The position numbers and the translations under genes are program-made. This document shows, in pieces, positions 18,198 through 44,179 of a DNA stretch of 64,000 nucleotides. This DNA is from Azoarcus sp. Aa7 (GTDB lineage: Bacteria > Pseudomonadota > Gammaproteobacteria > Burkholderiales > Rhodocyclaceae), in NCBI RefSeq assembly GCF_014822185.1, contig NZ_QVLR01000104.1:1-64000 (forward strand), written 5' to 3'. The notes beneath the pieces were generated by a model. It was given only the letters and a program-made list of their open reading frames with translations. It was not told where the DNA came from and searched no databases. The stretch's first letter is position 1. Each line of letters starts with the position of its first letter.

Positions 18198-18345
18198 CCC
18201 GCCTCCCCCCGGGCGAACCGTCTGTTCCCCGCCGCACCCACGCTCCTCACGCCCACCGCGAACGCACCCGATGCCGTTCGCAGCGCGGCTTTCCGTGCGC
18301 TTTCCGCGTGCCCGTTTCCATGCCCGAAATGAGCACTCGAGGTTA

Positions 18346-18374
18346 TTGCACATCCTGAAATCTCGTTTTAGAAT
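18346..18374 (+). promoter_or_regulatory. Sigma70-type promoter of aceE-aceF-lpd
   Basis: TTGCAC (18346-18351), 17 bases, TAGAAT (18369-18374), with a 5' leader of ~105 bases before the aceE start. The remaining stretch 18198-18345 holds no gene or clear motif. Confidence 0.65.
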
Positions 18375-18483
18375 GCGAAAAATGCTGCTCGACGACCTCG
18401 ACCGGCGCCTTACGGATTCGACCCGAATCACCGAGCCAGGGCGGATTCGCCAAACCGCGAAGCTCAACACAAGGAGACAGAGC

Positions 18484-21153: not shown

Positions 21154-21175
21154 GCGCGCGAGGGAGACAAAGAAC

Positions 21176-22855: not shown

Positions 22856-22867
22856 GGAGGCCGCGCC

Positions 22868-27282: not shown

Positions 27283-28113
27283 TTACCCCTGGAGCAGTTG
27301 CAGCACGTTCTGCGGCAACGCGTTGGCCTGCGCGAGCATCGCCGTACCCGCCTGCTGAAGGATCTGCGCCCGCGACAGCGCGGCAGTTTCCGCCGCGAAG
27401 TCGGCATCCATGATGCGGCTCGTCGCCGCCGTCTGATTCTCGCGCGAAATCTGCAGGATAGACACGACCCCTTCGAAACGGACCTGCGCCGCACCATAGG
27501 TGGCACGGTCGGTATTGATCTTGTCGAGCGCGGTGTCGATCGTCGAGATCGCTGCGGATGCACCGCTGGCAGTCGAGACGGTCGCCGCCGAAGCCGTCGC
27601 CGCCGACACCGCAGAACCCGAAATCGCGGTAGTCGTCACGTCGATCGTTTCCCCGCCGTTCGCACCGATCTGGAAGGTTTGCAATCCGGCATTGCTGTCG
27701 AGGATCTTCAGTCCGTTGAACGCCGTCTGCTGGCCGATGCGGTCGATCTCGGCCTGAAGCTGGTCGAATTCGGCTTCAAGCGCGCCACGATCGGACGAGG
27801 TGTTGGTGGCGTTGGACGACTGAACCGCAAGATCGCGCATGCGCAGCAGGTGATCCTTGATCTGCCCGAGCGCGCCTTCGGCGGTCTGCGCCAGCGAAAT
27901 GCCGTCATTGGCGTTGCGGATCGCCACCGTCATCCCGCGCGACTGGGCCGTCATGCGTGTTGCGATCGCAAGCCCGGCAGCGTCGTCCTTGGCACTGTTC
28001 ACGCGCAACCCCGACGACAGGCGCTGGAGCGCGGTGTTCAGTGCCCCCTGCGACGTGGTGAGATTACGCTGCGCATTGAGCGAGGGAATATTCGTATTGA
28101 TGATCGAAGCCAT
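27283..28113 (-). CDS. fliC: Flagellin, copy 1
   Basis: 276 residues. Start [20 protein letters not shown] with AAGGAG ten bases upstream; a longer in-frame start would run over the promoter. Conserved D0/D1 regions are seen at both ends: [20 protein letters not shown] and the C-terminal [20 protein letters not shown] with [11 protein letters not shown]. The central variable region is short (~100 residues) and rich in Ser, Thr and Ala, the usual targets of O-glycosylation. It has the same length as the second copy at 41428-42258 and is very similar in sequence. Transcribed away from the sugar cluster, from a sigma54-type promoter. Confidence 0.95.
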
Positions 28114-28500: not shown

Positions 28501-29274
28501 ATGAAGGCAGTCATTTTGGCGGGAGGACTCGGCACACGCTTGTCCGAAGAAACCCAGGACAAGCCCAAGCCGATGGTCAACATCGGCGGGCGCCCGATCC
28601 TGTGGCATCTGATGAAGATATTCACTGCGCACGGCGTGCACGAATTCATCATCTGCCTTGGGTACAAGGGGTATGTCGTAAAGGAATTCTTTGCGAACTA
28701 TTTCCTGCACACATCGGATGTCACCTTCGACATGCGCGAGAACCGCATGGAAGTCCACGAACAACACACGGAACCGTGGCGCGTGACGCTCATCGACACC
28801 GGCGAACAGACCCAAACCGGCGGACGCCTGCGACGTGTCCGTCAGTACCTCGATCAGGAGGAGTCCTTCTTCTTCACCTACGGCGACGGGCTGGCGGACG
28901 TGGACCTTCGTGCCCTGCACGACTTCCATCGCTCCCACGGCAAACTCGCGACGGTAACCGCGGTGATACCGCCAGGGCGATTCGGTGCGCTCGAGTTTTC
29001 CGGACATGAAGTGTCGCGATTCACGGAAAAGCCGGCAGGGGACGGGACGCTCATCAACGGCGGCTTCTTCGTCCTGTCGCCCAAGGTGATCGATTTGATC
29101 GAGGGCGACCAGATGCCCTGGGAACAGACGCCCATGCAAGCCCTCGTCGCACAACAGCAGCTTTGCGCATACCGCCATGACGGTTTCTGGCAGCCGATGG
29201 ACACACTACGCGACAAGTTCAACCTCGAGCGCCTGTGGAGGGATGGCAGCGCGCCCTGGAAGATCTGGCAATGA
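28501..29274 (+). CDS. rfbF: Glucose-1-phosphate cytidylyltransferase
   Basis: 257 residues, full length. It makes CDP-glucose from CTP and glucose-1-phosphate, the entry to CDP-linked deoxysugars. Seen are MKAVILAGGLGTRLSEETQ (nucleotide loop), DKPKPMVNIGGRPILWHLMK, and the family-specific NGGFFVLSPKVIDLI and VAQQQLCAYRHDGFWQPMDT. The last codons overlap rfbG as ATGA. GGAG lies before the start. It heads the sugar cluster, divergent from flagellin copy 1. Confidence 0.95.
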   Translation: MKAVILAGGLGTRLSEETQDKPKPMVNIGGRPILWHLMKIFTAHGVHEFIICLGYKGYVVKEFFANYFLHTSDVTFDMRENRMEVHEQHTEPWRVTLIDTGEQTQTGGRLRRVRQYLDQEESFFFTYGDGLADVDLRALHDFHRSHGKLATVTAVIPPGRFGALEFSGHEVSRFTEKPAGDGTLINGGFFVLSPKVIDLIEGDQMPWEQTPMQALVAQQQLCAYRHDGFWQPMDTLRDKFNLERLWRDGSAPWKIWQ

Positions 29275-30335
29275 ATCTCGCAAACTACGCCGGTCGTCGC
29301 GTACTCATCACCGGACATACCGGTTTCAAGGGCGGGTGGCTGGCAACCTGGCTTCACCGGCTCGGCGCCCGCGTCGCGGGGATCGCGCTCGAACCCGACA
29401 CGGCGCCATCGCTATTTCTCGAAGCACGAATTGCGGACCTCGTGGACTCCACCATCGCCGATGTCCGCGATGAAACGAGGGTCTCGGAAATCATTGCCGG
29501 ATTCTCACCGGAGATCGTGTTCCATCTTGCCGCCCAGCCTCTCGTGCGGACAGGATACGAGGCCCCCCTGCGCACCTTTGCGACCAACGTCATGGGCACC
29601 GCCAACGTGCTGGAAGCCGCCCGCAGGACGCCGTCGGTGCGTGCGGTAGTCGTTGTCACCAGCGACAAGTGCTACCGTGAAACAGGATCCATCTGGGGCT
29701 ATCGGGAAAGCGATCCGCTGGGCGGCCACGACCCCTATGCGGCCAGCAAGGCCGCGGCGGAACTGGTAACGGGGGCCTGGCGGGACAGTTTCGGCAGCGA
29801 ACCCGGCGCGCCCCTCATCGCGTCCGCGCGTGCCGGCAATGTCATCGGCGGCGGCGACTGGGCGAAGGACCGGCTTGTTCCCGACCTGTGGCGCGCGGCA
29901 CGCGCGGGGATGCCGGCGGAGATCCGCAATCCCGCGGCCGTGCGGCCGTGGCAACATGTGCTGGAGCCGCTGGCCGGCTACCTGATCCTGGGCGAACGTC
30001 TGCTTGCCGCCGACATGCAGGCTGCGGAAGCATGGAATTTCGGCTGCAACCTCGCGGACATGCAGCCCGTGAGCGTATTGTGCGAACACTTGGCCCCCCT
30101 GCTCGGCTTCACGTGGCGGCACGATGGCACCGCCCATCCCCGCGAAGCGCCCACCTTGCGGCTCGACAGCAGCAAAGCCATGCTCGGACTGGACTGGCAC
30201 CCCTGCCTGAGTCTGCAGCGTGCGTGCGAACTCACGGGCGATTGGTATGCGCGCCACGCGCGCGGAGAGGATGCGTGCACCCTCATGCTTGAACAGATCG
30301 GCATCTACGAGGCCGCCACCGGAGACAATCGATGA
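29271..30335 (+). CDS. rfbG: CDP-glucose 4,6-dehydratase
   Basis: 354 residues. A short-chain dehydrogenase fold converts CDP-glucose to CDP-4-keto-6-deoxyglucose. Seen are the NAD loop [40 protein letters not shown] (typical of RfbG) and the catalytic [13 protein letters not shown] (YxxxK). The ATG overlaps the rfbF stop by four bases and its own end overlaps rfbH by four, so the three are coupled. Confidence 0.94.
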
Positions 30336-31732
30336 GCCCCCCCCAAGACGCCCGCGACACCGTACGCGATGCAGTTCGCGCCTATTGCGCCGCAAGCGCG
30401 GGCGAGCGCCCCTTCGTTCCGGGCGAGACCCCGATTCCGCCCTCCGGAAAGGTCATTGGCGAAGCCGAAACGCAGGCGATGGTCGAGGCCGCACTCGACG
30501 GATGGCTGACCACGGGACGATTCAATGCGGCCTTCGAGCAGCGCCTCGCCGCATTCGTCGGACTCCACCATGCCCTGACGGTCAATTCCGGCTCGTCGGC
30601 CAACCTCGTGGCCGTCTCGGCGTTGTTCTCGCCGATGCTGGGCCAATCGGCGATCGCACCGGACGACGAGATCATCACCGTCGCCGCCGGCTTTCCAACC
30701 ACGGTCAATCCCATCCTGCAAAACGGGGCCGTGCCGGTCTTCGTCGATGTCCTGCCCCACACCTACAACATCGACACGCGCCTGCTCGACGGCGCGCTGT
30801 CGCCGCGAACCCGGGCCGTGGTCCTGGCCCACACGCTCGGGAACCCCTACGACCTCGCCGCCGTCACCGCCTTCTGCGCCCGCAACAACCTGTGGCTCGT
30901 CGAGGACTGCTGCGACGCGCTCGGCGCCCGCTACGCCCTGCCCGCCGATACCGACGCATGGCTTCCGCGAACACCGACGCCGGACGATCCCAGCCTGTGG
31001 CGCCGCGGCACGGATGCCGACCGCGAACGCCACGTCGGCTGCTTCGGCCATCTCGCCACGCTCTCGTTCTACCCCGCCCACCACATCACGATGGGCGAAG
31101 GCGGCGCGGTGCTCACCGGCGATGGCCTCCTCAAGCGCATCGCCGAATCGATCCGCGACTGGGGCCGTGACTGCTGGTGCGCACCGGGATGCGACAACAC
31201 CTGCGGCAAACGCTTCGGCTGGCAGTTCGGCGAACTCCCGGCCGGCTACGACCACAAGTACACCTATTCGCACCTCGGCTACAACCTCAAGATTTCCGAC
31301 ATGCAGGCCGCCTGTGCGCTCGCTCAGCTCGATCGCCTTCCGGGATTCGTCGAGGCACGCCGGCGCAATTTCGCCCGACTCGCCGAGCGCCTCGCACGCT
31401 ACGAAGGGTCGCTGGACCTGCCCCAAGCGACACACGGGGCCACGCCTTCATGGTTCGGCTTTCCGATCACCCTGCGGGCGGAAGCGGGACTGAATCGTGT
31501 CGATCTGCTGCAGTGGCTCGACCAACACCGCATCGGCACCCGACTGCTTTTCGCGGGCAACCTCACCCGCCAGCCTTACTTTGCCGGTCGTCCATTCCGG
31601 ATAGCCGGAACACTCACCACGACCGACAGGATCATGAACGACACCTTCTGGGTCGGCGTCTGGCCCGGACTGCAGGAACCCATGATCGACTATATCGCCG
31701 ACACGCTCGGAGTATTCCTCGGTAATTTTTGA
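30332..31732 (+). CDS. rfbH: CDP-4-keto-6-deoxyglucose 3-dehydratase, RfbH/E1 type
   Basis: 466 residues. A PMP-dependent [2Fe-2S] enzyme of the aminotransferase fold that removes the C3 hydroxyl of CDP-4-keto-6-deoxyglucose. The usual Lys is replaced by His (~251) in [14 protein letters not shown], as in E1/DdhC. Cluster Cys residues are at ~193 (EDCCDALG), 281, 283 and 291 ([17 protein letters not shown]); a ~30-residue insertion lies between the first and the others compared with the textbook spacing. GSGSSANL (here NSGSSANLV) binds the cofactor phosphate. The reductase partner (RfbI/E3) is not in the window and may be elsewhere or replaced. Confidence 0.93.
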
Positions 31733-31751
31733 AGGAGGTGGAAACCCCACC

Positions 31752-33509
31752 ATGGAACCGATTCAAACACGCATTGCTGAACGGGAATTTCTCTTTGCCA
31801 AGGCCGGCGACACGATCAACGAGGTCTGGCAGCGCTCACTGCCACTGCCCTCGGGCGGAAGCCTGCTTCCGGTGTCCCGCCCCCACCTCGACAACATGGA
31901 CCTGATGGCAACCCTCGGACGGTGGCGGTCCGAAAACCAGTTTGCCTACACTAATCGTTTCCCCATCACTACCGAGCGTACCCGCAACTGGCTCGATCGG
32001 GCCGTCGTCCAGCGCCCGGACCGGATCCTCTTCCTGGTCGTCCAGCGCGACGCGGAGGTCATTGGGCACATAGGACTCGCCAACGGCCTGGGACGCGAAG
32101 GCGCGCTCGAGATCGACAACGTCCTGCGTGGAAAGAAGGACGGGGCGCCCGGCCTGATGACGGAGGCGCTCGCCGCCATCATGGAGTGGGCGCGCAAGGT
32201 TCTGTTCATCGACCGTTTCTACCTGCGCGTGCTGGAGTCGAACACGGAAGCCCTCGATTACTACCGTCGGCAGGGCTTCGTCGAGGAAGATCGTCTGCCG
32301 CTCAAGTGGCACACCTCCGACAACGGGGAGCGCCAACTGGAACCATGCACCTCGCCCGAAGGCGAGGACGCTTTCGTCGTGATGACGCACAAGGCAGTGG
32401 AGCACGACCCGCACCAGCTGATCCTCACCGCAGGCCCGTCGATCGGCATGCGCGAACGCGCTTATGCCGCGGATGCCGTGCGAACGGGCTGGAACCAGGA
32501 CTGGAACCGTTACATCGGCAGGCTCGAAACCAAGATGTGCGAGCGGATCGGCGTTGCGCACGCGATCTCGACATCGTCATGCACCGGGGCGCTTCATATC
32601 GCCCTTGCGGCACTGGGAATCGGCCCGGGCGATGAAGTGATCGTGCCCGAATTGACATGGGTGGCTACCGCAAACGCCGTGCGCTACGTCGGCGCAACTC
32701 CCGTGTTTGCCGATGTCGATGAAAAAACCTGGCTGATCGACACGGAAACGGCCGCCCGCTGCCTGACGTCGCGCACGAAGGCGATCATGCCGGTGCATCT
32801 GTACGGATTTCCGTGCGATCTCTCGAATCTGATGGCGTTCGCCGAACAGCACGGGCTCTACGTCATCGAGGATGCTGCGGCCGCACTGGGAGCCCGGCAC
32901 GCCGGCCGACCGGCCGGCAGTTTCGGGCATTTTTCGACGTTCAGCTTCCAGGGTGCGAAGGTTGCGGTCTCCGGCGAAGGGGGAATGCTCGTCACCAACG
33001 ACGAGACCCTCTTCCGTGCGGCCGCCAAGATCGCCGACCAGGGCCGCAAGCCGGGCACTTTCAGGATTGACGGCCAAGGTCTGAAATACAAGATGTCGAA
33101 CATGCAGGCCGCCGTTGCCCTTGCCCAGGTCGAGCGCATCGACGAGCTCGTATTCGCCAAGCGGCGGCTGCACGGCTGGTATCGTGAGGGGCTGGCCGGC
33201 CTGCGCCACGCGGAGTTCTATGCCGAGCAGGCCGAACAGCAGAGCGCCTGCTGGATGAACAGCCTGCGGCTCCACGCCGATGCACCGCTCACACGCGACG
33301 CTTTGATCGCGGCGCTCCGGCAACGCAATATCGATACCCGGCCGGTCTTCCCCGCGATCAGCCAGTATCCGATCTGGCAGGAAAGCCACACCCCCGGCCC
33401 CGTCGCACACGCCATCGGCGAAAGCGCCTTGAACCTTCCGTCGGGAGTGTGTCTTGAGCGCAGTGCCGTCGATTACGTGTGTCGGACCATCCGGGATCTG
33501 CTCGAATGA
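31752..33509 (+). CDS. Fusion of GNAT N-acetyltransferase and DegT-type sugar aminotransferase
   Basis: 585 residues. Residues ~45-215 are a RimJ/RimL-like GNAT domain (RWRSENQFAYTNRFPIT; IGHIGLANGL; YLRVLESNTEALDYYRRQGF). Residues ~220-585 are a DegT/DnrJ/EryC1 aminotransferase: STSSCTGALHIALAALGI, IVPELTWVATANAVRYVGAT, VIEDAAAALGARH with Asp ~374, and FSTFSFQGAKVAVSGEGGML with the PLP Lys ~403. A single chain that aminates a keto-sugar and acylates the new amine would fit. Both active sites look complete. The start has AAGGAGG ten bases upstream. The substrate, probably the CDP-keto-deoxysugar of the upstream genes, is inferred. Confidence 0.9.
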   Translation: MEPIQTRIAEREFLFAKAGDTINEVWQRSLPLPSGGSLLPVSRPHLDNMDLMATLGRWRSENQFAYTNRFPITTERTRNWLDRAVVQRPDRILFLVVQRDAEVIGHIGLANGLGREGALEIDNVLRGKKDGAPGLMTEALAAIMEWARKVLFIDRFYLRVLESNTEALDYYRRQGFVEEDRLPLKWHTSDNGERQLEPCTSPEGEDAFVVMTHKAVEHDPHQLILTAGPSIGMRERAYAADAVRTGWNQDWNRYIGRLETKMCERIGVAHAISTSSCTGALHIALAALGIGPGDEVIVPELTWVATANAVRYVGATPVFADVDEKTWLIDTETAARCLTSRTKAIMPVHLYGFPCDLSNLMAFAEQHGLYVIEDAAAALGARHAGRPAGSFGHFSTFSFQGAKVAVSGEGGMLVTNDETLFRAAAKIADQGRKPGTFRIDGQGLKYKMSNMQAAVALAQVERIDELVFAKRRLHGWYREGLAGLRHAEFYAEQAEQQSACWMNSLRLHADAPLTRDALIAALRQRNIDTRPVFPAISQYPIWQESHTPGPVAHAIGESALNLPSGVCLERSAVDYVCRTIRDLLE

Positions 33510-34315
33510 CGCAGGACCTCGCGCGCCGCATACGGATCAATGCCTTAAGCATGGTCGCGCGGGCGCGCGCCTCCCATATCGGGAGCGCCCTGTCCATCGC
33601 GGACATCGTCGCCGTCCTCTATGGCGACATCCTCCGCGTCGACCCGCGGCGGCCGGATTGGGCGGAACGCGACCGGTTCATCCTGAGCAAAGGCCACGCA
33701 TGCGTGGCCGTCTATGCGGCCCTGGCCGAGCAAGGCTTCTTTCCGACCGAATGGCTGGATACTTACGGTGCCGTGGATAGTCCGCTGCTCAACCACGTGT
33801 CCCACACCGTGCCGGGGGTCGAATTCTCGACCGGATCCCTCGGGCATGGGCTGCCTTTCGCGGCCGGCAAGGCCTTGGCCCTATGGACGCGCGGACAAAC
33901 GTCGCGCGTATTCGCGCTCCTCAGCGACGGCGAACTCGACGAAGGCAGCAACTGGGAGGCACTCCTCTTCGCCGCCCACCACGGGTTGTCCAACCTCACC
34001 GCGATCATCGACTTCAACAACCTGCAGAGCCTCGACACCGTGGACAACACGCTGCGTCTGGCCCCCCTGGCGGACAAGTTTGCCGCCTTCGGCTGGGCGG
34101 TGCGGGAAATCGACGGGCATTCCCACGACGCCCTGCGAGAGGCTCTTTCGGCCGTTCCCTGGGACGGCAAGCGCCCGTGCATGCTCGTCGCCCACACGGT
34201 CAAAGGCAAAGGGGTTTCATTCATGGAGAACAAGGTCGAGTGGCACTACCGCGCCCCGGACGCAGCACAACTGGAGCAGGCGCTCGCAGAACAAGGCGGA
34301 GGCGCCGATGCGTGA
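33506..34315 (+). CDS. Transketolase-like protein, N-terminal (TPP) subunit
   Basis: 269 residues from the ATG at 33506, which overlaps the previous stop as ATGA. Seen are MVARARASHIGSALSIADIV, RDRFILSKGHACVAVYAALA, SLGHGLPFAAGKALA and the thiamine diphosphate motif LSDGELDEGSNWEALLFAAH ending in DFNNLQSLD. The C-terminal half-enzyme is the next gene, overlapping by eight bases. Split transketolases in surface-sugar clusters are thought to add a two-carbon unit to a keto-sugar rather than serve the pentose phosphate pathway; this role is inferred from context. Confidence 0.88.
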   Translation: MTQDLARRIRINALSMVARARASHIGSALSIADIVAVLYGDILRVDPRRPDWAERDRFILSKGHACVAVYAALAEQGFFPTEWLDTYGAVDSPLLNHVSHTVPGVEFSTGSLGHGLPFAAGKALALWTRGQTSRVFALLSDGELDEGSNWEALLFAAHHGLSNLTAIIDFNNLQSLDTVDNTLRLAPLADKFAAFGWAVREIDGHSHDALREALSAVPWDGKRPCMLVAHTVKGKGVSFMENKVEWHYRAPDAAQLEQALAEQGGGADA

Positions 34316-35156
34316 CGCCTTCATCGACGAGCTGTGCCGGCAGGCCGAGCAGCGTTCCAACGTCATCCTGATCGTCGGCGACCTCGGCTACTCGGTGGTC
34401 GAACCGTTCGCCGCACGCTTCCCGGATCGTTTCTTCAACGCCGGCGTCGCGGAGCAGAACATGCTGGGCCTTGCGGCCGGCATGGCATCCGAAGGCTGCC
34501 ATGTCTTCGCGTACTCGATAGCCAACTTTCCCACCTTCCGCTGCGCCGAACAGTTCCGCAACGACGTTGATTATCATCAGCTCGCGGTGACGGTCGTCGC
34601 CGTAGGTGGAGGCCTGGCCTACGGGAATCTCGGCTATTCCCACCACGCCGTGCAGGATTTCGGGCTGATGCGCCTGTTTCCGCAAACGTTGATTGCGGCG
34701 CCCGGGGACCCACTCGAGGCCCGCGCGTGCCTGCGCTACCTGCTCGACCACCCTCAACCATCCTATTTCAGGCTCGGCAAGGCCGGGGAAGTCGCGGTCC
34801 ACCCGGAGGTGCCTAGCGTCGCACCGGGCCAGTGGCTCCAGGTCGTGGCTGAAAGAGGCGCGGCCTCCGCCCGCCTTTCGACCGGAACCATGTTGCACCG
34901 GACCCTCGCATCGCATCGCGAGCGAGATACCCCTCTCCCCGAGGATCTCTTCACCATGCCGTTGTGGGGCGCAGGGTGCAAGGATTCCCAGGCGGCACAG
35001 CTCGCCCGTTACGGATGCGTCGAAACCTGGGAGGACCATTATCTGGACGGCGGCTTCGGATCCTGGCTGCGGGAGGCAGCCGCGCTGTCGGGAAGTCCGA
35101 CCCGAATTCGGTCCCGATTCCTCCGGCCCGATCAAACTCTCGGCCACACCGCATGA
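34308..35156 (+). CDS. Transketolase-like protein, C-terminal (Pyr) subunit
   Basis: 282 residues. Seen are VGDLGYSVVEPFAARFPDRF, FNAGVAEQNMLGLAAGMASE with the conserved Glu that activates TPP, ANFPTFRCAEQFRNDVDYH, and GGLAYGNLGYSHHAVQDFGL. The C-terminal domain has WGAGCKDSQAAQLARYGCVE. It completes the active site with the preceding subunit. Overlaps at both ends (eight bases with the N-subunit, an ATGA with a possible start of the following glycosyltransferase) suggest tight co-expression. Confidence 0.88.
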   Translation: MRDAFIDELCRQAEQRSNVILIVGDLGYSVVEPFAARFPDRFFNAGVAEQNMLGLAAGMASEGCHVFAYSIANFPTFRCAEQFRNDVDYHQLAVTVVAVGGGLAYGNLGYSHHAVQDFGLMRLFPQTLIAAPGDPLEARACLRYLLDHPQPSYFRLGKAGEVAVHPEVPSVAPGQWLQVVAERGAASARLSTGTMLHRTLASHRERDTPLPEDLFTMPLWGAGCKDSQAAQLARYGCVETWEDHYLDGGFGSWLREAAALSGSPTRIRSRFLRPDQTLGHTA

Positions 35157-35164
35157 GAACCTCA

Positions 35165-36397
35165 ATGAGCCTTACGATCGCGATTCCGAGCTACAAGCGC
35201 CCCGAACTCCTCATCCGCACGCTCGGCACCCTGCTGGCCCAGCCCTGGCGCAATCCCCCGCAAATCGTCGTGTGCGTGAATCACCCGAACGACGGGTACC
35301 CCGAGGCGCTTGCGCCATTCGCCACCTCGCCGCGCATACGCATCCTGCAGCAGGCATCCCATGTATCCAGCGGTCAGCAACTCTTTGCCGCACTCGCGCA
35401 TGCCGAGACCGAATTCGTGGTCGGCCTCGCGGACGATGACGAACTCGACGTCGCCGCTATCGAACAATACGTCGACTTCCTGGCGCAATTTCCCGAGATC
35501 GCCGCCGTCTATGCGCCCGTCAGCTACATCGACTATGTCAGCGGAAATCAATTCAACTACAACGCAGTTCCAGCTGAAGGCAAGGTGATCAACCGCGGCG
35601 ACTATTACGGCCTGCTCGCCTTCGTCGCCGAGAACCAGCATTGGCCGGAACTTGGCATCTACCGCACCGCGGCCCTGCGCGGTGCCTTGCACGCGTCGGA
35701 CTGGTCGTTCTACGAGCTGTCGAAACTGAGCGGCCTGCTGTCCCACGGACACGTGGCCTTCGTTCCGCAACCCTTCTACGTATTCGTTCTCCGCCACCAG
35801 GGCGAAACGGAAAGACAGAACCTGGGCACCGGTCTCGTGATGCAACCGGCCTACATCGAGCGCGCACGGGGCGGGCTGGAGCGCCTGGCGGAGCGCGCGA
35901 TGCAGCAACTCGGAAACGGCATTACCCAGCAACAGTTCGACTACATCAGCGCAACGTGTCGGGTTCTGTTCTCGACCCGCCTTCGCGAGTCCTATCATGC
36001 CGCCGTGAATTCGGGACAGTTCGCGGACGCGCTGGAGATCGCCCTGCGCCTGCGCACCTATCTCGTCCCTCTCGATCCCCCGCCGGAACGCCTCCTGTGC
36101 GGCGCGGTAATCGAGCTTGCTCACCGGGTCCTGCTCTCCCGCAGCTGGAAAAAATACCTCGTGTTGTACAAACTAGGTCGAGGCGAAGAACATGCAAGAC
36201 GACTGGACAACGTGCTGATCGCGGACGACCATGACCTCTCTGCGCGAGTCGCACCGGACGCCCTCTTCCTTGCCGATAGCCGGCGCATCGAGGAGCTTCA
36301 CGACATCGCACCTGCCGTCGACTGTCTCTCGTTCGAGGAGGTCGCCTCGCATTTCTACCTCGGTCCTCAACAAGGTCCGGAAAACGCCGGAAGCTGA
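35165..36397 (+). CDS. Family 2 glycosyltransferase
   Basis: 410 residues from MSLTIAIPSYKRPELLIRTL; an in-frame ATG at 35153 overlapping the previous stop is possible, but GAGA lies before 35165. The GT-A fold has VVCVNHPNDG, ISGQQ-like VSSGQQLFAALAHAETEFVV and the DxD-type LADDDELD (~85-92) that binds the metal-nucleotide sugar. The C-terminal ~170 residues are helical without membrane segments, so a soluble cytoplasmic enzyme. Donor and acceptor are unknown; in this cluster it probably extends the glycan on flagellin or a lipid-linked precursor. Confidence 0.85.
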   Translation: MSLTIAIPSYKRPELLIRTLGTLLAQPWRNPPQIVVCVNHPNDGYPEALAPFATSPRIRILQQASHVSSGQQLFAALAHAETEFVVGLADDDELDVAAIEQYVDFLAQFPEIAAVYAPVSYIDYVSGNQFNYNAVPAEGKVINRGDYYGLLAFVAENQHWPELGIYRTAALRGALHASDWSFYELSKLSGLLSHGHVAFVPQPFYVFVLRHQGETERQNLGTGLVMQPAYIERARGGLERLAERAMQQLGNGITQQQFDYISATCRVLFSTRLRESYHAAVNSGQFADALEIALRLRTYLVPLDPPPERLLCGAVIELAHRVLLSRSWKKYLVLYKLGRGEEHARRLDNVLIADDHDLSARVAPDALFLADSRRIEELHDIAPAVDCLSFEEVASHFYLGPQQGPENAGS

Positions 36398-36403
36398 TCT
36401 CGC

Positions 36404-37528
36404 GTGCAAACACATCGAATCCTGATCGTCGGCGCGGGCTACTCCGGCGCCGTCGCGGCCCGTGAACTCGCGGATCATGGCTTTCAAGTCCTCGTCATCG
36501 ACCGCCGCGAGCACATCGCCGGAAATGCCTATGACGAAGGGGACGCCGCGGGAATTCTGGTCCACCGCTACGGCCCGCACATATTCCACACCAACTCCGA
36601 ACGGGTCTTCCGCTACCTCTCCCGCTTCACCGCATGGCGCGCCTACGAGCACCGGGTGCTCGCTCACGTGGCCGGCAAACTGCTGCCGATCCCCATCAAC
36701 CGCACCACGATCAATGAACTATACGGGCTGAATCTCGACGAGGCGGGGGTCGCTGCCTACCTCGAATCGGTCCGTGTGCCGTGCGAGCACCCGCAAACGA
36801 GCGAAGACGTCGTCCTCAACTCGGTGGGCCACGACCTGTGCGAGAAATTCTTTCGTGGCTACACGCGAAAGCAGTGGGGACTGGACCTCTCGGAGCTGGC
36901 GGCAGGAGTCGCGGCACGCATTCCAACTCGCTGCAACGACGACGACCGCTACTTCACCGACGTCTATCAGGCGATGCCGCTGGAGGGCTACACGCAGATG
37001 TTCGAGCGCATGCTCGACCACCCTTCGATCGAGACGCGTCTTGGCGTCGATTACTTCAATGCGACGGACCTCGGCGACTTTGATCACACGATATTCACCG
37101 GGCCGATCGACGCCTTCTTCGGCTATTGCCTCGGACGCCTTCCTTATCGCAGCCTTCGATTCGAACACGAGCACCTTGCCGGAGTGGAACGCTACCAGCC
37201 GACCGGCACGATCAATTATCCCAACGATCACGCGTACACCCGGATCACAGAGTTCCGCCATCTGACCGGGCAGACGCACACGGGGACCTCGATCGTTCGC
37301 GAGTTCCCACAGGCCGATGGCGAGCCCTACTACCCCATACCTCGACCGCAGAACCAGGCGCACTACAAGCGCTATGAGACTCTCGCCGCCGAAAGGCCGG
37401 ACGTCACCTTCGTGGGACGACTTGCCGAATATCGCTACTACAACATGGACCAGGCCGTTGCGGCGGCGCTAACCGCGGCCCGGCGACTCATCGAGCGCCT
37501 GCGTCCCGGTTCACAGGGAGAAGCATGA
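36404..37528 (+). CDS. glf: UDP-galactopyranose mutase
   Basis: 374 residues, GTG start. Converts UDP-galactopyranose to UDP-galactofuranose, a reduced-FAD enzyme. Seen are ILIVGAGYSGAVAARELA (FAD), HIAGNAYDEGDAAGILVHRY, the hallmark GPHIFHTNSERV, FFRGYTRKQWG, VERYQPTGTINYP and FVGRLAEYRYYNMDQAV at the C-terminus. It implies a galactofuranose residue in the glycan made here. It ends directly before the next start (TGAATG). Confidence 0.94.
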   Translation: MQTHRILIVGAGYSGAVAARELADHGFQVLVIDRREHIAGNAYDEGDAAGILVHRYGPHIFHTNSERVFRYLSRFTAWRAYEHRVLAHVAGKLLPIPINRTTINELYGLNLDEAGVAAYLESVRVPCEHPQTSEDVVLNSVGHDLCEKFFRGYTRKQWGLDLSELAAGVAARIPTRCNDDDRYFTDVYQAMPLEGYTQMFERMLDHPSIETRLGVDYFNATDLGDFDHTIFTGPIDAFFGYCLGRLPYRSLRFEHEHLAGVERYQPTGTINYPNDHAYTRITEFRHLTGQTHTGTSIVREFPQADGEPYYPIPRPQNQAHYKRYETLAAERPDVTFVGRLAEYRYYNMDQAVAAALTAARRLIERLRPGSQGEA

Positions 37529-40500
37529 ATGAAGGCAATCTACATCCTGTTGCCGCATAACACGCGCACCGGCGGCCCCGAGGCGCTCCTGCAGCTGTCC
37601 GATGCACTCGCTGAACGGATGCCGGACGTTCCAAGCCATGTAGTCTGTTATAACGCGGCCGAGATCGCGGACCTCAGGGCCCAAGGCGACAGGAAGCTCG
37701 ATGCCGGGTCCGAACTGGTATTCGGCGAACGCGAAATCGGCATTCCCGAGTATGCCGGGTACCGCAGCACGCTCGCCCATCGCGTTCCGCGGACGCCCGA
37801 ATCCGTCGTGGTCCTGCCCGAGGTGTTGGCCGACCTGGTGCCGCTGTTCCGTCGAAACACGGTCCTCTTGTGGTGGCTGAGCGTCGATAACGCCTTCCCT
37901 GCGCTGGGCCGGATCAACATGAACCACCTGCGCCGCCCCGGCGTGTTCCACGCAAGCCAGAGCACTTACGCGGAACGATTCCTGTCTGCGTGCGGACTCC
38001 CGTCGCTAGGGCTTCTCTCCGACTACACGCCCGACAGCTTCGGCCTGACGACCGCAGCGACGGCCCGGGAGCGCCTGATCGTCCTCAACGCGAGCGCAAA
38101 GGTCGTGTCCGACCTCGACGCCGTCGAGCGCTTCATCCACGAGCAGGCGCCGGACGCCGAAGTGCGCAGGCTCGCCGGCCTCTCACGCAAGGAAGTCGCC
38201 CACCTGCTCGGTCGCGCCAGCGTATATGTCGACCTGGCCTCATTTCCCGGCAAGGACCGACTCCCCCGCGAAGCGGCCCAGCTCGGCTGCGCGGTGCTCG
38301 TCGCCGCAGCGGGCGCCGGGATCGGCGGTGGCGACTTCCCGGTACCCCAGAACGCGATCGTGTCCCCATGGAACGCCGAAGAGGTTGCCCGTCAGGCGGT
38401 ACGGCTCCTGGACCCGACCGAGGCCGATGCGAACCGCGCCACGATGCGGCAGGTCATCGCAAACGAGCGCGCACAGTTCTTCACGGAAGTATCAAGCGTC
38501 TTTTCCGCACTGGCCGACTCTGCGGAGACTGCGCCGCAGGAGGCCCCGGTCGCACACACGGAGGTTCACCTCGGCAAGGACGTCCGCAACAACCGATATC
38601 AGCTCTGGCGCAGCCGCAGAACGCCCCAGGAAATCGACGGCCAGATCCACGCAGAACGGATGCTCAATACGTGGCGCTTTCGTCCGCGTTTCACGTTCGG
38701 CATGAACCTCGAGAGCCCAGAAGCGTTCGCGCTGCTCGCCGACACGGTCGATGCGCTGGCCCGCCAGTGGTATCCGGAGTGGCAGCTGGTGGTCTTCGCA
38801 GCCAACCAGGCCGAACCCCCGGAGGTCGCGGACATCCCGCACATCGTGTGGATCTCGGATCCCGCCATCGTGCCGAGCTACAGGAACGCCCTTGCGGCCG
38901 CCGACGGCGATTTCGTGTCGCAGCTGCCGGCCGGGACGACCCTCGATGATCACGCCCTGCAGCTGATTTCGGATCACGTCAATCGCGCCAGCGGCTGGCT
39001 TGCGTTCTACCTCGATCACGACGAACAGGACGCCGCGGGGAATGTCCTTCCGCGCTTCAAGCCGGACTTCAACGCAGACCTGCTCTACGCACAGAACTAC
39101 ATCGGACCCGTGGCCTTCATATGTCGGGAGGCGATCCAGGCGTTCGCTGACGCGAACGAAGCCGGAGCCCCTGAACCCTATGGGCTGCTGGTCAGGCTCT
39201 TCGAACAGGCCTCGGCAGCCACCATCGGACATATCGCGGACCCGTTGATCCACCTGCCGAGCCGTCCGACTGCAAATCTCGCGTACGAACAGACCGTGCT
39301 CGAGCAGCATTTCGCCCGGACAAAGCGTTCGGCGAACATCGAATCAGGCTGGTTCGAAGGGACCCGTCGCATCCGCTTCGCCAAGGCCGACGGTTGCCTG
39401 CTGTCAGTCATCGTCATGACCCACTGCCTCCCCGGATACCTTCGCTGCAGCCTCGAATCGCTGCGCAAACACGGCGGGCATGAGTCGCTCGAAGTAATCG
39501 TCGTCGCACACCGTGTCAGCGACCCCGACCTCCAGCACCTCCTCGCGAGCTATGCCGCCGGCGGGCTCGGCATCCCCGTCAGCATCCGTCATGAAGACGG
39601 CGAGTTCGCGCCGGCAGCCTTCCGCAACCGCGCGGCCGCCACCGCGCGCGGCGACTACCTCCTGTTCCTCGACGACGACGCCGAGTTCTTCCAGCCGGAC
39701 TCCCTGGCGCACTTGCTGTCGTATGTCAGCGCGACCGGTCTCGCCGCGGCCGCGCCGCGGCTCGTCTCGGCTGACGAAGGCAACCCGCGAATCGTCGGGT
39801 CCGCCGCCATCCTCGGTTTCCAATCCCTGGCCGGCAGCATTGCCCCCGCGGACGCGAGCCTGCTCGACGCCAGTCGCGAGTTGCGACTCCAGCTGGACCA
39901 GGAGGCCTCGTCACTCCCCTCGAATTGTCTGCTCGTGGACAAGAGGTGGTTTACGCGGCTGGGCGGATTCGACGAACAAGCAGCGCCGATGCTGCTGCAC
40001 GACCTCGACTTCTGCATCAAGGCCCGAAAGGCAGGTGCCCGTCTTGCCTGGCTGCCCAGTATCGACGTCATCCATCACGGAGGCCTGACCCTTCGCGAAA
40101 TCGCGAACGACCCATTGGAGCGCGCGCGCTGGTCGGGCATCCAGGAAAGGGAGCACGAATCGATGCTGGACCGGCATCTCCGCACCATCGCAGAGGACCC
40201 GGCGTACAACCGCAACCTGAGCTTCCGGGAACCCTTCCTGCCCGACGTACAGGCTGTCCCCGACTGGGACACGGCTTTCCGCGACCGCCCGCGCCTGCTA
40301 GGCGTGCCGCTAACGACCGGAGCCGGGCAATACCGTCTCGTCGCGCCCTTCAAGGCCCTCGCGCGCGCCGCACTCGCGCAATGCACGGTCGTCCATCCGA
40401 TCCGGGACAATCTGCTCCGCGCACTCACGCCGACCGAGGTCGCCCGCCTCGCCCCGGACACGCTCGTCTACCAAAACTGCATCGAGGAGGCCATGATCCA

Positions 40501-41305
40501 GCGGCTCGCCGAATCGCGCCGATGGAACCCTGACGTGTTCCACATCTGCACCATCGACGACCGCCTGGGCGATCTCCCGCGCGACAATCCCCTCTACGCC
40601 TTCCACGCGCGGCAGGGGCGCACCCAGCTGCGCAAGACGCTTTCACACTGCGATCGCCTGATCGTCTCCACCGAACCGCTCCGCGAGTACTGCGCGGATC
40701 TCATCGAGGACATCCGTGTCGTGCCGAACCGTCTCGAGCGCGACGTCTGGACCGGGCTGAAGGTCGCGATCAACGAAGGCAAGCGGCCGCGAGTCGGCTG
40801 GGTCGGAGCGATGCAGCACGGGGGCGACCTGCGCCTGCTCGAACCCGTCGTGCGCGACCTGGCGGCCGGGGTGGACTGGGTCTTCATGGGCATGTGCCCG
40901 GACTTCCTCAAGCCATACGTATGCGAGACCCACGACTTCGTCTCGATCCGCGATTACCCCGCCAAGATGGCCTCCCTGGCCCTCGATCTCGCACTCGCTC
41001 CGCTCGAGATCCATCCCTTCAACGAGTGCAAGAGCAACCTGCGGCTGCTGGAGTACGGCGCCCTCGGCTGGCCCGTGATCTGCACCGACATCGATCCCTA
41101 CCGGACCGGTTCGCCGCCCGTCACACGCCTTCCCAACACGTCCGCATCATGGATCGATGCCATACGGGAACGTCTCGCCGACCGCGCCGCGCTGCGCGCT
41201 GAAGGCGCCCGCCTGCGGCAGTGGGCCTACGCCGGATACATGCTTGAAGACGGCCTGGAAGCCTGGCTGGATGCCTTCTTGCGAAATCCTGCAAAACGCC
41301 CCTAA
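37529..41305 (+). CDS. Large multi-domain glycosyltransferase, candidate flagellin glycosyltransferase
   Basis: 1258 residues. Three parts are visible. Residues ~1-270 resemble a GT-B fold (LLPHNTRTGGPEALLQLSDAL, AQLGCAVLVAAAGAG). Residues ~350-870 hold GT2-like units: a degenerate one around ~390-520 and a clear one from ~620, LSVIVMTHCLPGYLRCSLES, FRNRAAATARGDYLLFLDDD with the DDD metal motif, and a second half HDLDFCIKARKAG. Residues ~920-1258 are GT4/GT1-like (RVGWVGAMQHGGDLRLLEPV, NECKSNLRLLEYGALGWPVI). No membrane segment. Such proteins near flagellin genes often glycosylate flagellin or build its glycan stepwise; the target is inferred. Confidence 0.85.
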   Translation: MKAIYILLPHNTRTGGPEALLQLSDALAERMPDVPSHVVCYNAAEIADLRAQGDRKLDAGSELVFGEREIGIPEYAGYRSTLAHRVPRTPESVVVLPEVLADLVPLFRRNTVLLWWLSVDNAFPALGRINMNHLRRPGVFHASQSTYAERFLSACGLPSLGLLSDYTPDSFGLTTAATARERLIVLNASAKVVSDLDAVERFIHEQAPDAEVRRLAGLSRKEVAHLLGRASVYVDLASFPGKDRLPREAAQLGCAVLVAAAGAGIGGGDFPVPQNAIVSPWNAEEVARQAVRLLDPTEADANRATMRQVIANERAQFFTEVSSVFSALADSAETAPQEAPVAHTEVHLGKDVRNNRYQLWRSRRTPQEIDGQIHAERMLNTWRFRPRFTFGMNLESPEAFALLADTVDALARQWYPEWQLVVFAANQAEPPEVADIPHIVWISDPAIVPSYRNALAAADGDFVSQLPAGTTLDDHALQLISDHVNRASGWLAFYLDHDEQDAAGNVLPRFKPDFNADLLYAQNYIGPVAFICREAIQAFADANEAGAPEPYGLLVRLFEQASAATIGHIADPLIHLPSRPTANLAYEQTVLEQHFARTKRSANIESGWFEGTRRIRFAKADGCLLSVIVMTHCLPGYLRCSLESLRKHGGHESLEVIVVAHRVSDPDLQHLLASYAAGGLGIPVSIRHEDGEFAPAAFRNRAAATARGDYLLFLDDDAEFFQPDSLAHLLSYVSATGLAAAAPRLVSADEGNPRIVGSAAILGFQSLAGSIAPADASLLDASRELRLQLDQEASSLPSNCLLVDKRWFTRLGGFDEQAAPMLLHDLDFCIKARKAGARLAWLPSIDVIHHGGLTLREIANDPLERARWSGIQEREHESMLDRHLRTIAEDPAYNRNLSFREPFLPDVQAVPDWDTAFRDRPRLLGVPLTTGAGQYRLVAPFKALARAALAQCTVVHPIRDNLLRALTPTEVARLAPDTLVYQNCIEEAMIQRLAESRRWNPDVFHICTIDDRLGDLPRDNPLYAFHARQGRTQLRKTLSHCDRLIVSTEPLREYCADLIEDIRVVPNRLERDVWTGLKVAINEGKRPRVGWVGAMQHGGDLRLLEPVVRDLAAGVDWVFMGMCPDFLKPYVCETHDFVSIRDYPAKMASLALDLALAPLEIHPFNECKSNLRLLEYGALGWPVICTDIDPYRTGSPPVTRLPNTSASWIDAIRERLADRAALRAEGARLRQWAYAGYMLEDGLEAWLDAFLRNPAKRP

Positions 41306-41427: not shown

Positions 41428-42258
41428 ATGGCCTCCGTCATCAACACCAATGTCCAGTCGTTGAATGCTCAGCGCAATCTTTCGACTTCGCAAAACTCGC
41501 TCAACTCCGCGCTCCAGCGCCTGTCCTCCGGCCTGCGCGTAAATAGCGCCAAGGACGACGCTGCCGGTCTCGCGATCGCCACGCGAATGACGGCACAGTC
41601 TCGCGGCATGTCGGTCGCAATCCGCAACGCGAACGACGCGATCTCCCTGACCCAGACCGCCGAAGGCGCACTCGGCCAAGTCAAGGATCACCTGCTGCGC
41701 ATGCGCGACCTCGCAGTGCAGTCGACCAATGCGACCAACACGTCGGCCGACCGCAACGCACTGGAAGCCGAGTTCGACCAACTCCAGGCAGAAATCGACC
41801 GTATTGGCACGCAAACCGCCTTCAACGGCCTGAAGATCCTCGATTCGAACGCCGGCGCACAAGCCTTCCAGATCGGCGCGAACGGCGGTGAGACGATCAC
41901 CGTGACGACCACCGCGATCTCGGCATCCTCGGTGTCGGCAGCAACCGCCTCGGGAGCGACCGTCGCGAGCGCCAGCGGCGCATCCGCAGCCATCGCGACG
42001 ATCGACACCGCGATCGACAAGGTCAATACCGACCGCGCGACCTACGGTGCCGCCCAAGCGCGCTTCGAAGGCGTCGTGTCGATGCTGCAGGTCGCCCGCG
42101 AGAACCAGACGGCAGCGGTCAGCCGTATCATGGACGCCGACTTCGCTGCGGAAACGGCCTCGCTGAGCCGTGCGCAGATCCTGCAGCAGGCTGGCACTGC
42201 GATGCTGGCACAGGCCAATGCGCTTCCGCAGAACGTGCTGAGCCTCCTGCGCGGCTAA
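41428..42258 (+). CDS. fliC: Flagellin, copy 2
   Basis: 276 residues, the same length as copy 1. Start [20 protein letters not shown], with AAGGAG eight bases upstream. D0/D1 ends are [20 protein letters not shown] and [20 protein letters not shown] with [13 protein letters not shown]. Differences from copy 1 are scattered and mostly in the middle ([20 protein letters not shown]). It heads the run flaG-fliD-fliS-fliT, the normal filament gene order, so it is probably the original copy. A hairpin follows. Confidence 0.95.
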
Positions 42259-42330: not shown

Positions 42331-42759
42331 ATGGCGCTCCAACCTGTTACCCCCCTAGTTCCGGCTAATGTCCAGGCACTATCTGTCCGGCCGGCCGCGC
42401 CGCAGGGAAACCCGGACGGCGTCGCAAACACGGCAAAGAACCCGCCCGCCGCAGCGCAGTCAACACCGGTAGCCGCGGCCGTGGGACTGGCGCGGATCGG
42501 CACAGTATCGGGCGCGGCAGAAGACAGATCGGCCCGCCGGGAAGAACTGGACCGCGCCCTCGACGACGTTCGAAAGGTGGTCGAGCCTGTGGCGCGTAAT
42601 TTGCTTTTCTCCGTCGACGACGATTCCGGGCGCACTATCGTTAAAGTTGTGGATAACGCCACCAAGGAAGTTATCCGGCAGATTCCGAGCGAGGAGATTC
42701 TTTCCATTGCCAAGGCATTGGACAGATTGAAGGGACTCCTCATCAAGCAAGAAGCCTGA
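42331..42759 (+). CDS. flaG: FlaG family flagellar protein
   Basis: 142 residues. A disordered Ala/Pro/Thr N-terminal half is followed by the FlaG core from ~75: LDRALDDVRKVVEPVARNLL, FSVDDDSGRTIVKVVDNATK, EVIRQIPSEEILSIAKAL. FlaG lies between flagellin and fliD in polar-flagellated bacteria and affects filament length; its exact role is unclear. CGGAGG precedes the start by ten bases. Confidence 0.92.
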   Translation: MALQPVTPLVPANVQALSVRPAAPQGNPDGVANTAKNPPAAAQSTPVAAAVGLARIGTVSGAAEDRSARREELDRALDDVRKVVEPVARNLLFSVDDDSGRTIVKVVDNATKEVIRQIPSEEILSIAKALDRLKGLLIKQEA

Positions 42760-42775
42760 AACGCAGGAGGCACAC

Positions 42776-44179
42776 ATGGCGACGATCACATCCGCGGGCA
42801 TCGGCTCCGGCCTCGCGGTCGAGTCGATCATCACCCAGTTGATGCAACTGGAGCGCCAGCCCATTACCCAGTTGCAGCAGCGGCAGAGTTCGTACAACGC
42901 GAAGCTGTCGTCGCTCGGAAAGATCAAGAGCGCGATGTCGGCCCTACAGACGGCTGCCGACAACATCAAGACGGCGGCAAAGTTTGCCATCTTCAAGACC
43001 GACATCGGCAATACGAACGTCATGAGCGCCTCCGCCGGCTCTGGCGCGATCGCAGCCAACCATTCCATCGAGGTGACGTCCCTCGCCGCGACCCAGAAAT
43101 TGGCGGCACCGGGCCGCGCAAGCAGCACCGAGGCCATCGCGACCGGCACGCTCACGCTGGAACTCGGCAAGCTCTCCGGCGGAACCTATACGCCCGACCC
43201 CGCACGCACCTACACGATCACCGTCGACAGCACGAACAACACGCTGGAGGGCCTGCGTGACGCGATCAACGATCTCGATGCCGACGTCACCGCATCCATC
43301 GTCAACGACGGCAGCGCCAATCCTGCCCGCCTCGTAATCAGTCCGAAGGACTCGGGCACCGCCAACGTCGTGCGTATGTCGGGCCTGACCGGTTTCGACT
43401 TCAATCCGGCGGCTCCGCTGGCCGGCTCGATGCAGCAGACCATCCCCGCCGCCGACGCAGTGGCCATCATCGACGGTATCACGGTCACGAAATCGTCGAA
43501 CGTCATCACCGACGCAATCGCGGGTGTGACACTCACGCTGAAGGCGAAGAACGAAGGTTCGCCGACGACGCTTCAGGTGTCCACGGACAACGACGCGATC
43601 AAGAAGGGCATTGAAGCCTTCGTGAAGGCCTACAACGACCTCAACAGCCAGATCCGGACCGAAACCAACTTCAATGCGGCCTCGGGCCAAGCGGGCGCAT
43701 TGAATTCGGACTCCGCCGTCCGCTCGGTACGCGATCAGTTGCGCCAGATCGTTTCGTCCGATCTTTCCGCCGCCGCCGGTGGTCTGACGCGTCTTTCCGA
43801 TGTCGGGATTGCCTTTGCCGTCGATGGCTCGATGACGATCAACAGCAGCAAGCTCGAGCAGGTCCTCGCCGATCCGAACAAGGACATCGCCGGCTTGTTT
43901 GCCGGGAATTCCAGCGTTTCAGGTATCGCAGCGCAACTCAGCGACCGGATCGGGGACATGCTCGCCGCCGATGGCACCATCAGCACACGCACCGAGAGCT
44001 ATAACCAGACCATCGCCGGCTTCAAATCACGGATCGAGGGATTCGAACGCCGGATGACCGCAATCGAGGCGCGCTACCGTCGCCAGTACTCCGCACTGGA
44101 CACGCTCGTTGCGAGCATGAACACGACGGGAACCTTCCTCGCACAGCAACTCGCGTCGCTGACAAGCATCAACAGCTGA
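42776..44179 (+). CDS. fliD: Flagellar filament cap protein FliD (HAP2)
   Basis: 467 residues. The N-terminal domain TSAGIGSGLAVESIITQLMQ and LERQPITQLQQRQSSYNAKL is diagnostic, and the C-terminal domain ends LDTLVASMNTTGTFLAQQLA. It caps the growing filament and folds flagellin subunits as they exit. The variable middle has the usual repeated beta-rich segments. Coupled in an operon with flaG and fliS (gaps of 16 and 10 bases). Confidence 0.95.
   Translation: MATITSAGIGSGLAVESIITQLMQLERQPITQLQQRQSSYNAKLSSLGKIKSAMSALQTAADNIKTAAKFAIFKTDIGNTNVMSASAGSGAIAANHSIEVTSLAATQKLAAPGRASSTEAIATGTLTLELGKLSGGTYTPDPARTYTITVDSTNNTLEGLRDAINDLDADVTASIVNDGSANPARLVISPKDSGTANVVRMSGLTGFDFNPAAPLAGSMQQTIPAADAVAIIDGITVTKSSNVITDAIAGVTLTLKAKNEGSPTTLQVSTDNDAIKKGIEAFVKAYNDLNSQIRTETNFNAASGQAGALNSDSAVRSVRDQLRQIVSSDLSAAAGGLTRLSDVGIAFAVDGSMTINSSKLEQVLADPNKDIAGLFAGNSSVSGIAAQLSDRIGDMLAADGTISTRTESYNQTIAGFKSRIEGFERRMTAIEARYRRQYSALDTLVASMNTTGTFLAQQLASLTSINS

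Follow-up and report, generated by a model that had tools for sequence, protein, structure and literature searches.

A probable transketolase-branched CDP-sugar for flagellin in a gene island of Azoarcus sp. Aa7

What sugar would be made by genes that combine a cytidine diphosphate (CDP) deoxysugar trunk with a transketolase in two halves and an aminotransferase fused to an acyltransferase, and to what would it be attached? The question is raised by a stretch of 64,000 nucleotides from Azoarcus sp. Aa7 (contig NZ_QVLR01000104.1, positions 1 to 64,000), which we call the window as a whole. Here nine closely packed genes on the + strand fill positions 28501-41305 and are flanked by two oppositely oriented flagellin genes. 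We consider it probable, judging from comparisons of sequences, that this island makes a CDP-sugar which is branched by the transketolase and destined for flagellin. The genes of the island and its surroundings are the following.

27283..28113, - strand: fliC1, flagellin, 276 amino acids (PF00669, 153 bits), divergent from the island
28501..29274, + strand: rfbF, glucose-1-phosphate cytidylyltransferase (TIGR02623, 444 bits, cut-off 300)
29271..30335, + strand: rfbG, CDP-glucose 4,6-dehydratase (TIGR02622, 434 bits, cut-off 278)
30332..31732, + strand: rfbH, 3-dehydrase of the E1 type with pyridoxamine phosphate and [2Fe-2S] (NF011936, 685 bits, cut-off 423; aligns to Yersinia E1, 3bcx)
31752..33509, + strand: fusion of a GNAT acyltransferase and a DegT aminotransferase, 585 amino acids (PF13302 at residues 48-176, PF01041 at 231-580)
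33506..34315, + strand: tktN, half of a split transketolase that binds thiamine diphosphate (ThDP) and Mg (PF00456; nearest PDB entry 6yak)
34308..35156, + strand: tktC, pyrimidine-binding half of the split transketolase (PF02779; nearest PDB entry 6yaj)
35165..36397, + strand: GT2-family glycosyltransferase, 410 amino acids (PF00535, 1.4e-11)
36404..37528, + strand: glf, uridine diphosphate (UDP)-galactopyranose mutase (TIGR00031, 368 bits, cut-off 304; PDB 3hdq, 506 bits)
37529..41305, + strand: large glycosyltransferase, 1258 amino acids, probable flagellin glycosyltransferase (GT2 at 626-755; homologs with fliC)
41428..42258, + strand: fliC2, flagellin, 276 amino acids (PF00669 and PF00700)
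42331..42759, + strand: flaG (PF03646)
42776..44179, + strand: fliD, filament cap (PF02465/PF07195)
44190..44606, + strand: fliS, flagellin chaperone (PF02561)

The key families match above their cut-offs, which rules out that the cluster is a product of chance or misreading. A preliminary description, made from the letters of the sequence, had named the GNAT-aminotransferase fusion, the split transketolase, glf and the two glycosyltransferases; all of them are there and run in one direction. It had also read the gene overlaps as a sign of one operon. Overlaps of four bases join rfbF to rfbG, rfbG to rfbH and the fusion to tktN, and one of eight bases joins tktN to tktC (tktN starts at 33506, or at a GTG further upstream, and tktC at 34308), while the remaining junctions measure 0-19 bases. 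Four such overlaps, together with the short gaps, indeed make a single operon likely. A sigma-28 pattern scan gave one match, away from the island (0.09 expected), and the matches from sigma-70 and terminator scans were no more numerous than in shuffled sequences.

Flagellin as the probable target

The strongest evidence for flagellin as the target of the glycan comes from the neighbourhood of the last gene's family. The sole Pfam match of the large glycosyltransferase is its GT2 domain. We searched 369 genomes of the class (E<=1e-60) and found homologs in 31 other genomes, at 32 places, 22 of which are covered by the 21 stretches (at most 20 kb each) that we fetched. FliC shares the stretch with the homolog in 18 of these 21, which belong partly to a common genus or family and are not all independent. 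Two of the exceptions are short contigs (L199, L204), and the third (L220) has no FliC within about 9 kb.

The same site in relatives of the genus gives a similar picture. We found fliC in all 17 genus genomes searched and took the stretches around it from 16 relatives. A GGDEF gene, which lies upstream in the window, directly adjoins fliC in nine of the 16 (L175, L177, L179-L182, L184-L186); four have no strong GGDEF match next to fliC (L183, L187-L189) and one is rearranged (L190). In two congeners, G213 (L176, L216) and G623 (L178, L217), a homolog of the large glycosyltransferase adjoins two fliC genes, and other sugar cassettes lie beside fliC. The G213 island spans the distance from fliC to GGDEF and has the RfbFGH trunk in common with the window (76, 64 and 78% identical). 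Beyond this trunk it holds, among others, genes for a NeuB-cupin protein, a decarboxylase-type ThDP carboligase and a B12 radical SAM protein. The carboligase (L216, 11872-13722, - strand) has the TPP_enzyme architecture, and its best PDB match is 8rph (384 bits), followed by the acetolactate synthase 6lpi (272) and by 5ahk (269); we take 8rph to be JanthE and 5ahk to be PpYerE. The carboligase has SDG in place of the canonical GDG, as does TktN of the window. In G623 the far end of the island, where the stretch also reaches its limit, matches RfbG (55%). Since the cassettes of the congeners differ, it is the sugar cassette that varies, and the glycosyltransferase family and the position beside fliC that stay constant.

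Two marks of a flagellin glycosylation island are seen here, namely sugar and glycosyltransferase genes that adjoin flagellin and a glycosyltransferase family tied to flagellin loci. Flagellin as the target, which the preliminary description had thought probable, is well supported by comparative genomics.

As for the flagellins themselves, the genome has two strong matches and a weaker one at 62836-63249, which we read as FlgL. The two fliC genes of the window are inverted copies (80.4% identity across 827 bases) that bracket the island, and recombination between them would flip it. Flagellin reading frames are 271-303 amino acids long (6 genes) in the three genus genomes that have the large glycosyltransferase; in the 14 other genus genomes the best flagellin match has 278, 298 and 315 amino acids in three and 386-761 in 11. 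The pyruvate dehydrogenase genes aceE-aceF-lpd (18271-24652) lie a few kb from fliC, and likewise in several congeners.

The CDP-sugar trunk and the split transketolase

The first three genes account for the trunk. RfbF, RfbG and RfbH occur together, and RfbH, of which the genome has one copy at E<=1e-80, matches Yersinia E1 (3bcx) with 583 bits. It retains PAHH at the Lys position and the CxC...C motif; we take the former to stand in place of the lysine that binds pyridoxal phosphate (PLP) and the latter to hold the [2Fe-2S] cluster. With this alignment and these motifs, RfbH should be a true 3-dehydrase that requires electrons, and the CDP-3,6-dideoxy-keto trunk that had been proposed at first sight is supported.

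Next, we asked what kind of enzyme TktN and TktC form. Among PDB entries both are nearest to the split transketolase of Carboxydothermus (6yak/6yaj). Compared with E. coli TktA, they retain H26, H66, H100, D155, N185, H261, R358, E411, F437 and H473, that is, the ThDP/Mg motif (with SDG for GDG), the catalytic His set and the catalytic Glu. At the acceptor site, where we take H461 to play a role, the picture is different: H461 is replaced by Gly and D469 by Leu, so that the pair expected for an aldose acceptor is missing. In addition, R520 is replaced by Lys, and S385 falls in an alignment gap. The catabolic 6yaj retains the equivalents of both H461 and D469. In E. coli, changes of D469 alter the acceptor of transketolase, according to the part of the study consulted (PMC5073344). 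The TPP_enzyme N/M/C decarboxylase architecture of YerE-type carboligases is absent from the window pair, which has transketolase domains.

We compared 98 rows, the window and 97 loci; three of 100 loci (L040, L053, L088) lacked two separate subunit reading frames and were dropped. Each locus was given its context by BLAST to the window proteins within its stretch. This overlooks sugar genes unrelated to those of the window, treats genes beyond the end of a cut contig as lacking, and makes "other" a mixed class; related rows are not independent. Position 461 is Gly in all 64 rows with a sugar context (32 CDP and 32 other nucleoside diphosphate (NDP)-sugar rows, window included), and Asp at 469 occurs in none of them. 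Among the 34 "other" rows, position 461 is Gly in 18, His in 8, Ser in 7 and Leu in 1, and all 8 His rows also have Asp at 469. Loss of H461 is therefore not limited to sugar loci, whereas its retention is limited to the "other" rows. The 32 loci in which split transketolases without H461/D469 lie near other nucleotide-sugar-type genes come from several phyla (within L034-L133).

A tree of the same rows places the window in a set of 22 (support 98), 20 of which are CDP loci. The eight rows that retain H461 and D469 cluster together (support 82), and the remaining 90 split off at 99. The context labels need 18 changes on the tree, against a mean of 47.6 when shuffled. Because it is a quick tree with long branches, only local placement was used. 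We also considered whether SDG in place of GDG could mark sugar transketolases and rejected it as a diagnostic, since SDG is found in 66 of the 98 rows overall and in 28 of the 32 CDP rows; the scan with tktN seeds, described below, is moreover biased, as it used a pattern adjoining the motif. In the class set, which has 19 rows, S and G occur 3 and 1 times in the CDP context, 5 and 5 times in the NDP-sugar context, and 3 and 1 times in the others. Taken together, the families, the active-site residues and the phylogeny support the transketolase as the putative branching enzyme.

Is the whole set of six enzymes, from RfbF to TktC, found elsewhere? Named genomes were probed with five tktN seeds, and the best 80 of at least 588 confirmed stretches were kept. 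One of these 80 (L055, from the Verrucomicrobia metagenome-assembled genome FR_27) has all six enzymes of the module, the fusion included: the aminotransferase part is 62% identical, the GNAT part 40%, tktN 63% and tktC 52%, RfbG is in two overlapping frames, and RfbF and RfbH are present. The closest tktC genes of the 80 (60-65%) are those of L054, L056 and L057 (Methylococcaceae, Burkholderiales and Limnohabitans), which have a short-chain dehydrogenase/reductase (SDR) by the transketolase pair and no aminotransferase of the fusion type there. No flagellar gene was recognised in these best 80 stretches. In the class set, on the other hand, genome G434 has a block RfbH-tktN-tktC-aminotransferase (L039; aminotransferase 51%) that adjoins a FlgL match, and its contig C238 (L194) starts inside the large glycosyltransferase and continues with fliC, fliD and fliS. 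The congener G293 carries FlgL, the large glycosyltransferase and fliC on a single contig, and we infer that the two blocks of G434 are likewise joined. WecB-like genes lie by the FlgL match in both genomes (L039, L212), in L039 together with a WbcJ-type gene of the UDP-N-acetyl-L-fucosamine (L-FucNAc) pathway; these islands may additionally use a sugar of the L-FucNAc type. The fusion itself was found at E<=1e-100 in one of 249 genomes of the family, and no match on plasmid records covered 80% of it.

The missing RfbI, to which the preliminary description had drawn attention, is missing from the cluster: Pfam gives no RfbI (E3) reductase among the nine genes. A ferredoxin/FAD-type reductase is, however, encoded elsewhere in the genome (L005, on G000:C40), with a BenC match that spans its ferredoxin and FAD/NAD parts. 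Every NCBIfam match of it is below the cut-off, and we therefore assign it to the RfbI superfamily and not to RfbI; it is the one we sorted of seven PF00970 matches in the genome. This reductase occurs in 17 of 17 genus genomes and RfbH in 2 of 17, so it is possible that a housekeeping protein of this type serves RfbH as electron partner in trans. Potentially, the lack of RfbI could mean that RfbH has another role. This idea is weakened by the conserved reductase and by two other loci. L055 has a 254-amino-acid reductase frame between rfbH and the fusion (NCBIfam flavin/ferredoxin reductases, below cut-offs; nothing in Pfam at 1e-8), and in L094 a homolog of the L005 reductase (31%, 150 bits) precedes rfbF.

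The proposed pathway and the ketone of the aminotransferase

We infer the reactions, their order, the two-carbon donor and the target as follows. RfbF and RfbG would make CDP-4-keto-6-deoxy-glucose, which RfbH, with electrons from a chromosomally encoded reductase (ferredoxin/flavin type, RfbI superfamily), would convert to CDP-3,6-dideoxy-4-keto-glucose. TktN and TktC, assembled as alpha2beta2, would transfer a hydroxyacetyl group from a ketose phosphate or hydroxypyruvate to the C4 ketone, leaving a tertiary alcohol and a two-carbon branch. The fusion would then aminate the new ketone of the branch and N-acylate the product. A second residue would come from UDP-galactofuranose, provided by Glf, and the GT2 protein and the large glycosyltransferase would attach the glycan to FliC1 and FliC2 in the cytoplasm, before export. 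As for Glf, it is the sole GLF match in the genome, belongs to the UDP-galactopyranose mutase family and is close to 3hdq, which we take to be the mutase of Deinococcus; UDP-galactofuranose is thus its likely product, and action on the CDP sugar instead is possible. The full proposal, namely that flagellin carries the C8 sugar 3,6-dideoxy-4-C-(1-acylamino-2-hydroxyethyl)-hexose, made on CDP by a new functional class of transketolases that accept the ketone of a nucleotide sugar and are widespread in sugar loci of bacteria, and that a YerE-like enzyme takes their place in a sister species, branching enzymes of two ThDP families being swapped within one flagellin island, is a tentative one and doubtful as a whole.

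The amination step is uncertain. The aminotransferase part of the fusion (PF01041, 352 bits) is nearest in the PDB to perosamine synthetase (3bn1/3dr7), and SFQGAK, in which we take K to bind PLP, is invariant in all three rows of its alignment (A2), as expected in the DegT family. The GNAT domain has only weak PDB matches. If the transketolase and the aminotransferase work on the same molecule, amination has to follow branching, as the C4 ketone is the sole electrophile. In favour of a common substrate, the aminotransferases of the window, L055 and L039 form a subgroup (51-62% identical) that has RfbH and the transketolase in three of three cases, a count that is not unbiased because L055 and L039 were found via the transketolase. 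A search of 398 genomes of the phylum gave no further member: delimited by the gap in scores, the subgroup occurs in one of the 398. The gap (714 to 435 bits) is inflated by the presence of the window's own sequence in the search model. Moreover, 25 of the 31 CDP-transketolase loci have an SDR no further than about 7 kb from the transketolase pair (PF01370 matches confirmed the SDR cluster for four representatives, and a second, smaller SDR cluster for one), and among the six without it (L039, L055, L060, L073, L077, L093) two, L039 and L055, have the aminotransferase adjoining the pair. The same adjacency is seen in L034, a cut contig in which no CDP gene is seen, and overall an aminotransferase directly adjoins the transketolase in 12 of 97 loci. 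The SDR that does neighbour L039 is the WbcJ-type enzyme.

A number of observations count against the proposed pathway. First, ketone acceptance by any transketolase has no in vitro proof, according to section 2.3 of a review of which parts were consulted (PMC12247030). Second, L055 with its full module has no recognised flagellar gene in 20.7 kb, which means that flagellin is not the general companion of this sugar; of the gene set that the preliminary description had suggested looking for near flagellins, a partial version adjoins FlgL (L039) and the complete one (L055) lies apart from flagellar genes. Third, the argument from the SDR is weak, since the SDR cluster is broad, four of the six SDR-less loci are without an adjacent aminotransferase, and L124 has both. 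Finally, outside the module the aminotransferases most similar to that of the fusion (42-45% identical) sit in transketolase-free loci. We fetched 12 of the 27 places of these next aminotransferases and found RfbF and/or RfbG in nine of the 12, and a transketolase or RfbH in none. Two of three plasmid loci examined (H1, H2) read RfbF-RfbG-RfbC-aminotransferase and the third (H3) is of the nonulosonate type; the C4 ketone is the only ketone in sight in H2, which points to amination of ring C4. Probably this was the ancestral role of the aminotransferase. Two further loci should be mentioned here. L266 (G668) has RfbF-RfbG-aminotransferase near a FlgL match (58 bits), without transketolase, and is perhaps another flagellar locus for a CDP-amino sugar. 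In L270 (G683) an unfused GNAT relative (37%) adjoins an aminotransferase (43%), likely an unfused form of the fusion pair, and there is no transketolase in 12 kb.

Given that the nearest aminotransferases mostly belong to transketolase-free CDP-glucose loci, the island could also make two separate sugars from one trunk. The fusion would then aminate and acylate ring C4, giving a CDP-4-acylamino-4,6-dideoxy-sugar, while a branched 3,6-dideoxy sugar would arise separately through RfbH and the transketolase, its ketone being either kept or reduced by an enzyme encoded elsewhere. The perosamine-type structures nearest to the fusion, the unfused pair of L270 and the presence of two glycosyltransferase genes all agree with this. 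On the other hand, the aminotransferase subgroup keeps company with RfbH and the transketolase (with the bias noted above) and gained no member outside it in the phylum search, no ketoreductase is recognised in the island or by the transketolase pair of L055, and RfbH would compete with a C4 aminotransferase for the same substrate. We hold this arrangement of two sugars to be unlikely, although it is a serious contender. Amination of the branch, once a transketolase-branched core is granted, has in our view a little less than an even chance; we keep the estimate down since the loci in which the aminotransferase accompanies the transketolase came to light through the latter.

That the split transketolase is instead an ordinary pentose-phosphate enzyme, which provides precursors without acting on the nucleotide sugar itself, would agree with its family and catalytic residues but seems to us very improbable, as the genome has eight other Transket_pyr matches (transketolase, DXS and dehydrogenase E1 not told apart), the pair lies within the operon and in a tree set of CDP loci, and H461 and D469 are lost throughout the sugar contexts. 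Still harder to believe is that the glycan is destined for lipopolysaccharide or another polysaccharide and lies by flagellin through coincidence: the related sets of L055, L056 and L057 have no recognised flagellar gene and some have, on a reading of the sequence, a flippase-like gene or an undecaprenyl-type GT2, but no flippase, polymerase or ligase is recognised among the nine island genes, the last gene's family accompanies flagellin, and congeners carry other cassettes at the same site. Thus, the parts of the preliminary interpretation that concern the flagellin target, the CDP trunk and branching by the transketolase have gained support, while the aminotransferase acting on the branch ketone, and with it a single N-acylated branched amino sugar as the product, is plausible and unproven.

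Known systems and what the island may mean

How does this island compare with characterised pathways? In the viosamine island of Pseudomonas syringae, vioA and vioB are presumably the aminotransferase and acyltransferase genes. Pseudomonas flagellin islands such as this one, with fgt1/fgt2, likewise keep sugar-nucleotide and flagellin glycosyltransferase genes together, as described in the part of the article consulted (PMC3927599). The glycan reported there is a modified viosamine-rhamnose-rhamnose, whereas the island of the window combines a CDP trunk with a split transketolase and glf (PMC3927599).

The branching step, for its part, would make the window island work like a yersiniose-type pathway, with the transketolase in the role of YerE and without membership of the YerE family. 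Where the yersiniose pathway has a ketoreductase, which we take to be YerF, the window has the aminotransferase-acyltransferase. In yersiniose A and erwiniose synthesis, as the consulted sections of the review have it (PMC12247030), YerE and ErwE use the same acceptor, CDP-3,6-dideoxy-4-keto-glucose, and a ThDP enzyme likewise branches C4. They are, however, decarboxylase-type enzymes that act on 2-oxo acids, unlike the transketolase-type pair of the window (PMC12247030). Another parallel is offered by the miharamycin and amipurimycin clusters, for which it has likewise been suggested that a two-gene transketolase moves a hydroxyacetyl unit onto a keto sugar; in these sections such transketolases appear as untested proposals only, in streptomycete antibiotic clusters (PMC12247030). 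Context sets the two groups apart, as all 13 candidates of the review are streptomycete, whereas loci of the window type are of the surface-glycan kind and come from many phyla (PMC12247030). The Carboxydothermus enzyme (6yaj/6yak), the closest solved homolog of both subunits, is an alpha2beta2 assembly, active only with its halves joined and assayed on aldehydes, as far as the consulted text describes it (PMC7661550); it retains the H461/D469 equivalents that the window pair has lost. We found no link between transketolase and flagellin glycosylation or rfbG/rfbH in the open-licence literature searched, and two further articles (PMC4509608, PMC8987622) contributed nothing here.

If the proposed pathway is true, the island would offer a compact and testable system for the transfer of hydroxyacetyl by a transketolase onto a ketone, which the consulted sections of a 2025 review call still pending (PMC12247030). 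The range of sugars known on flagellin would grow by a new kind. It would further suggest that the split transketolases of an entire branch, those in sugar loci, are sugar-branching and not pentose-phosphate enzymes, and many annotations would change.

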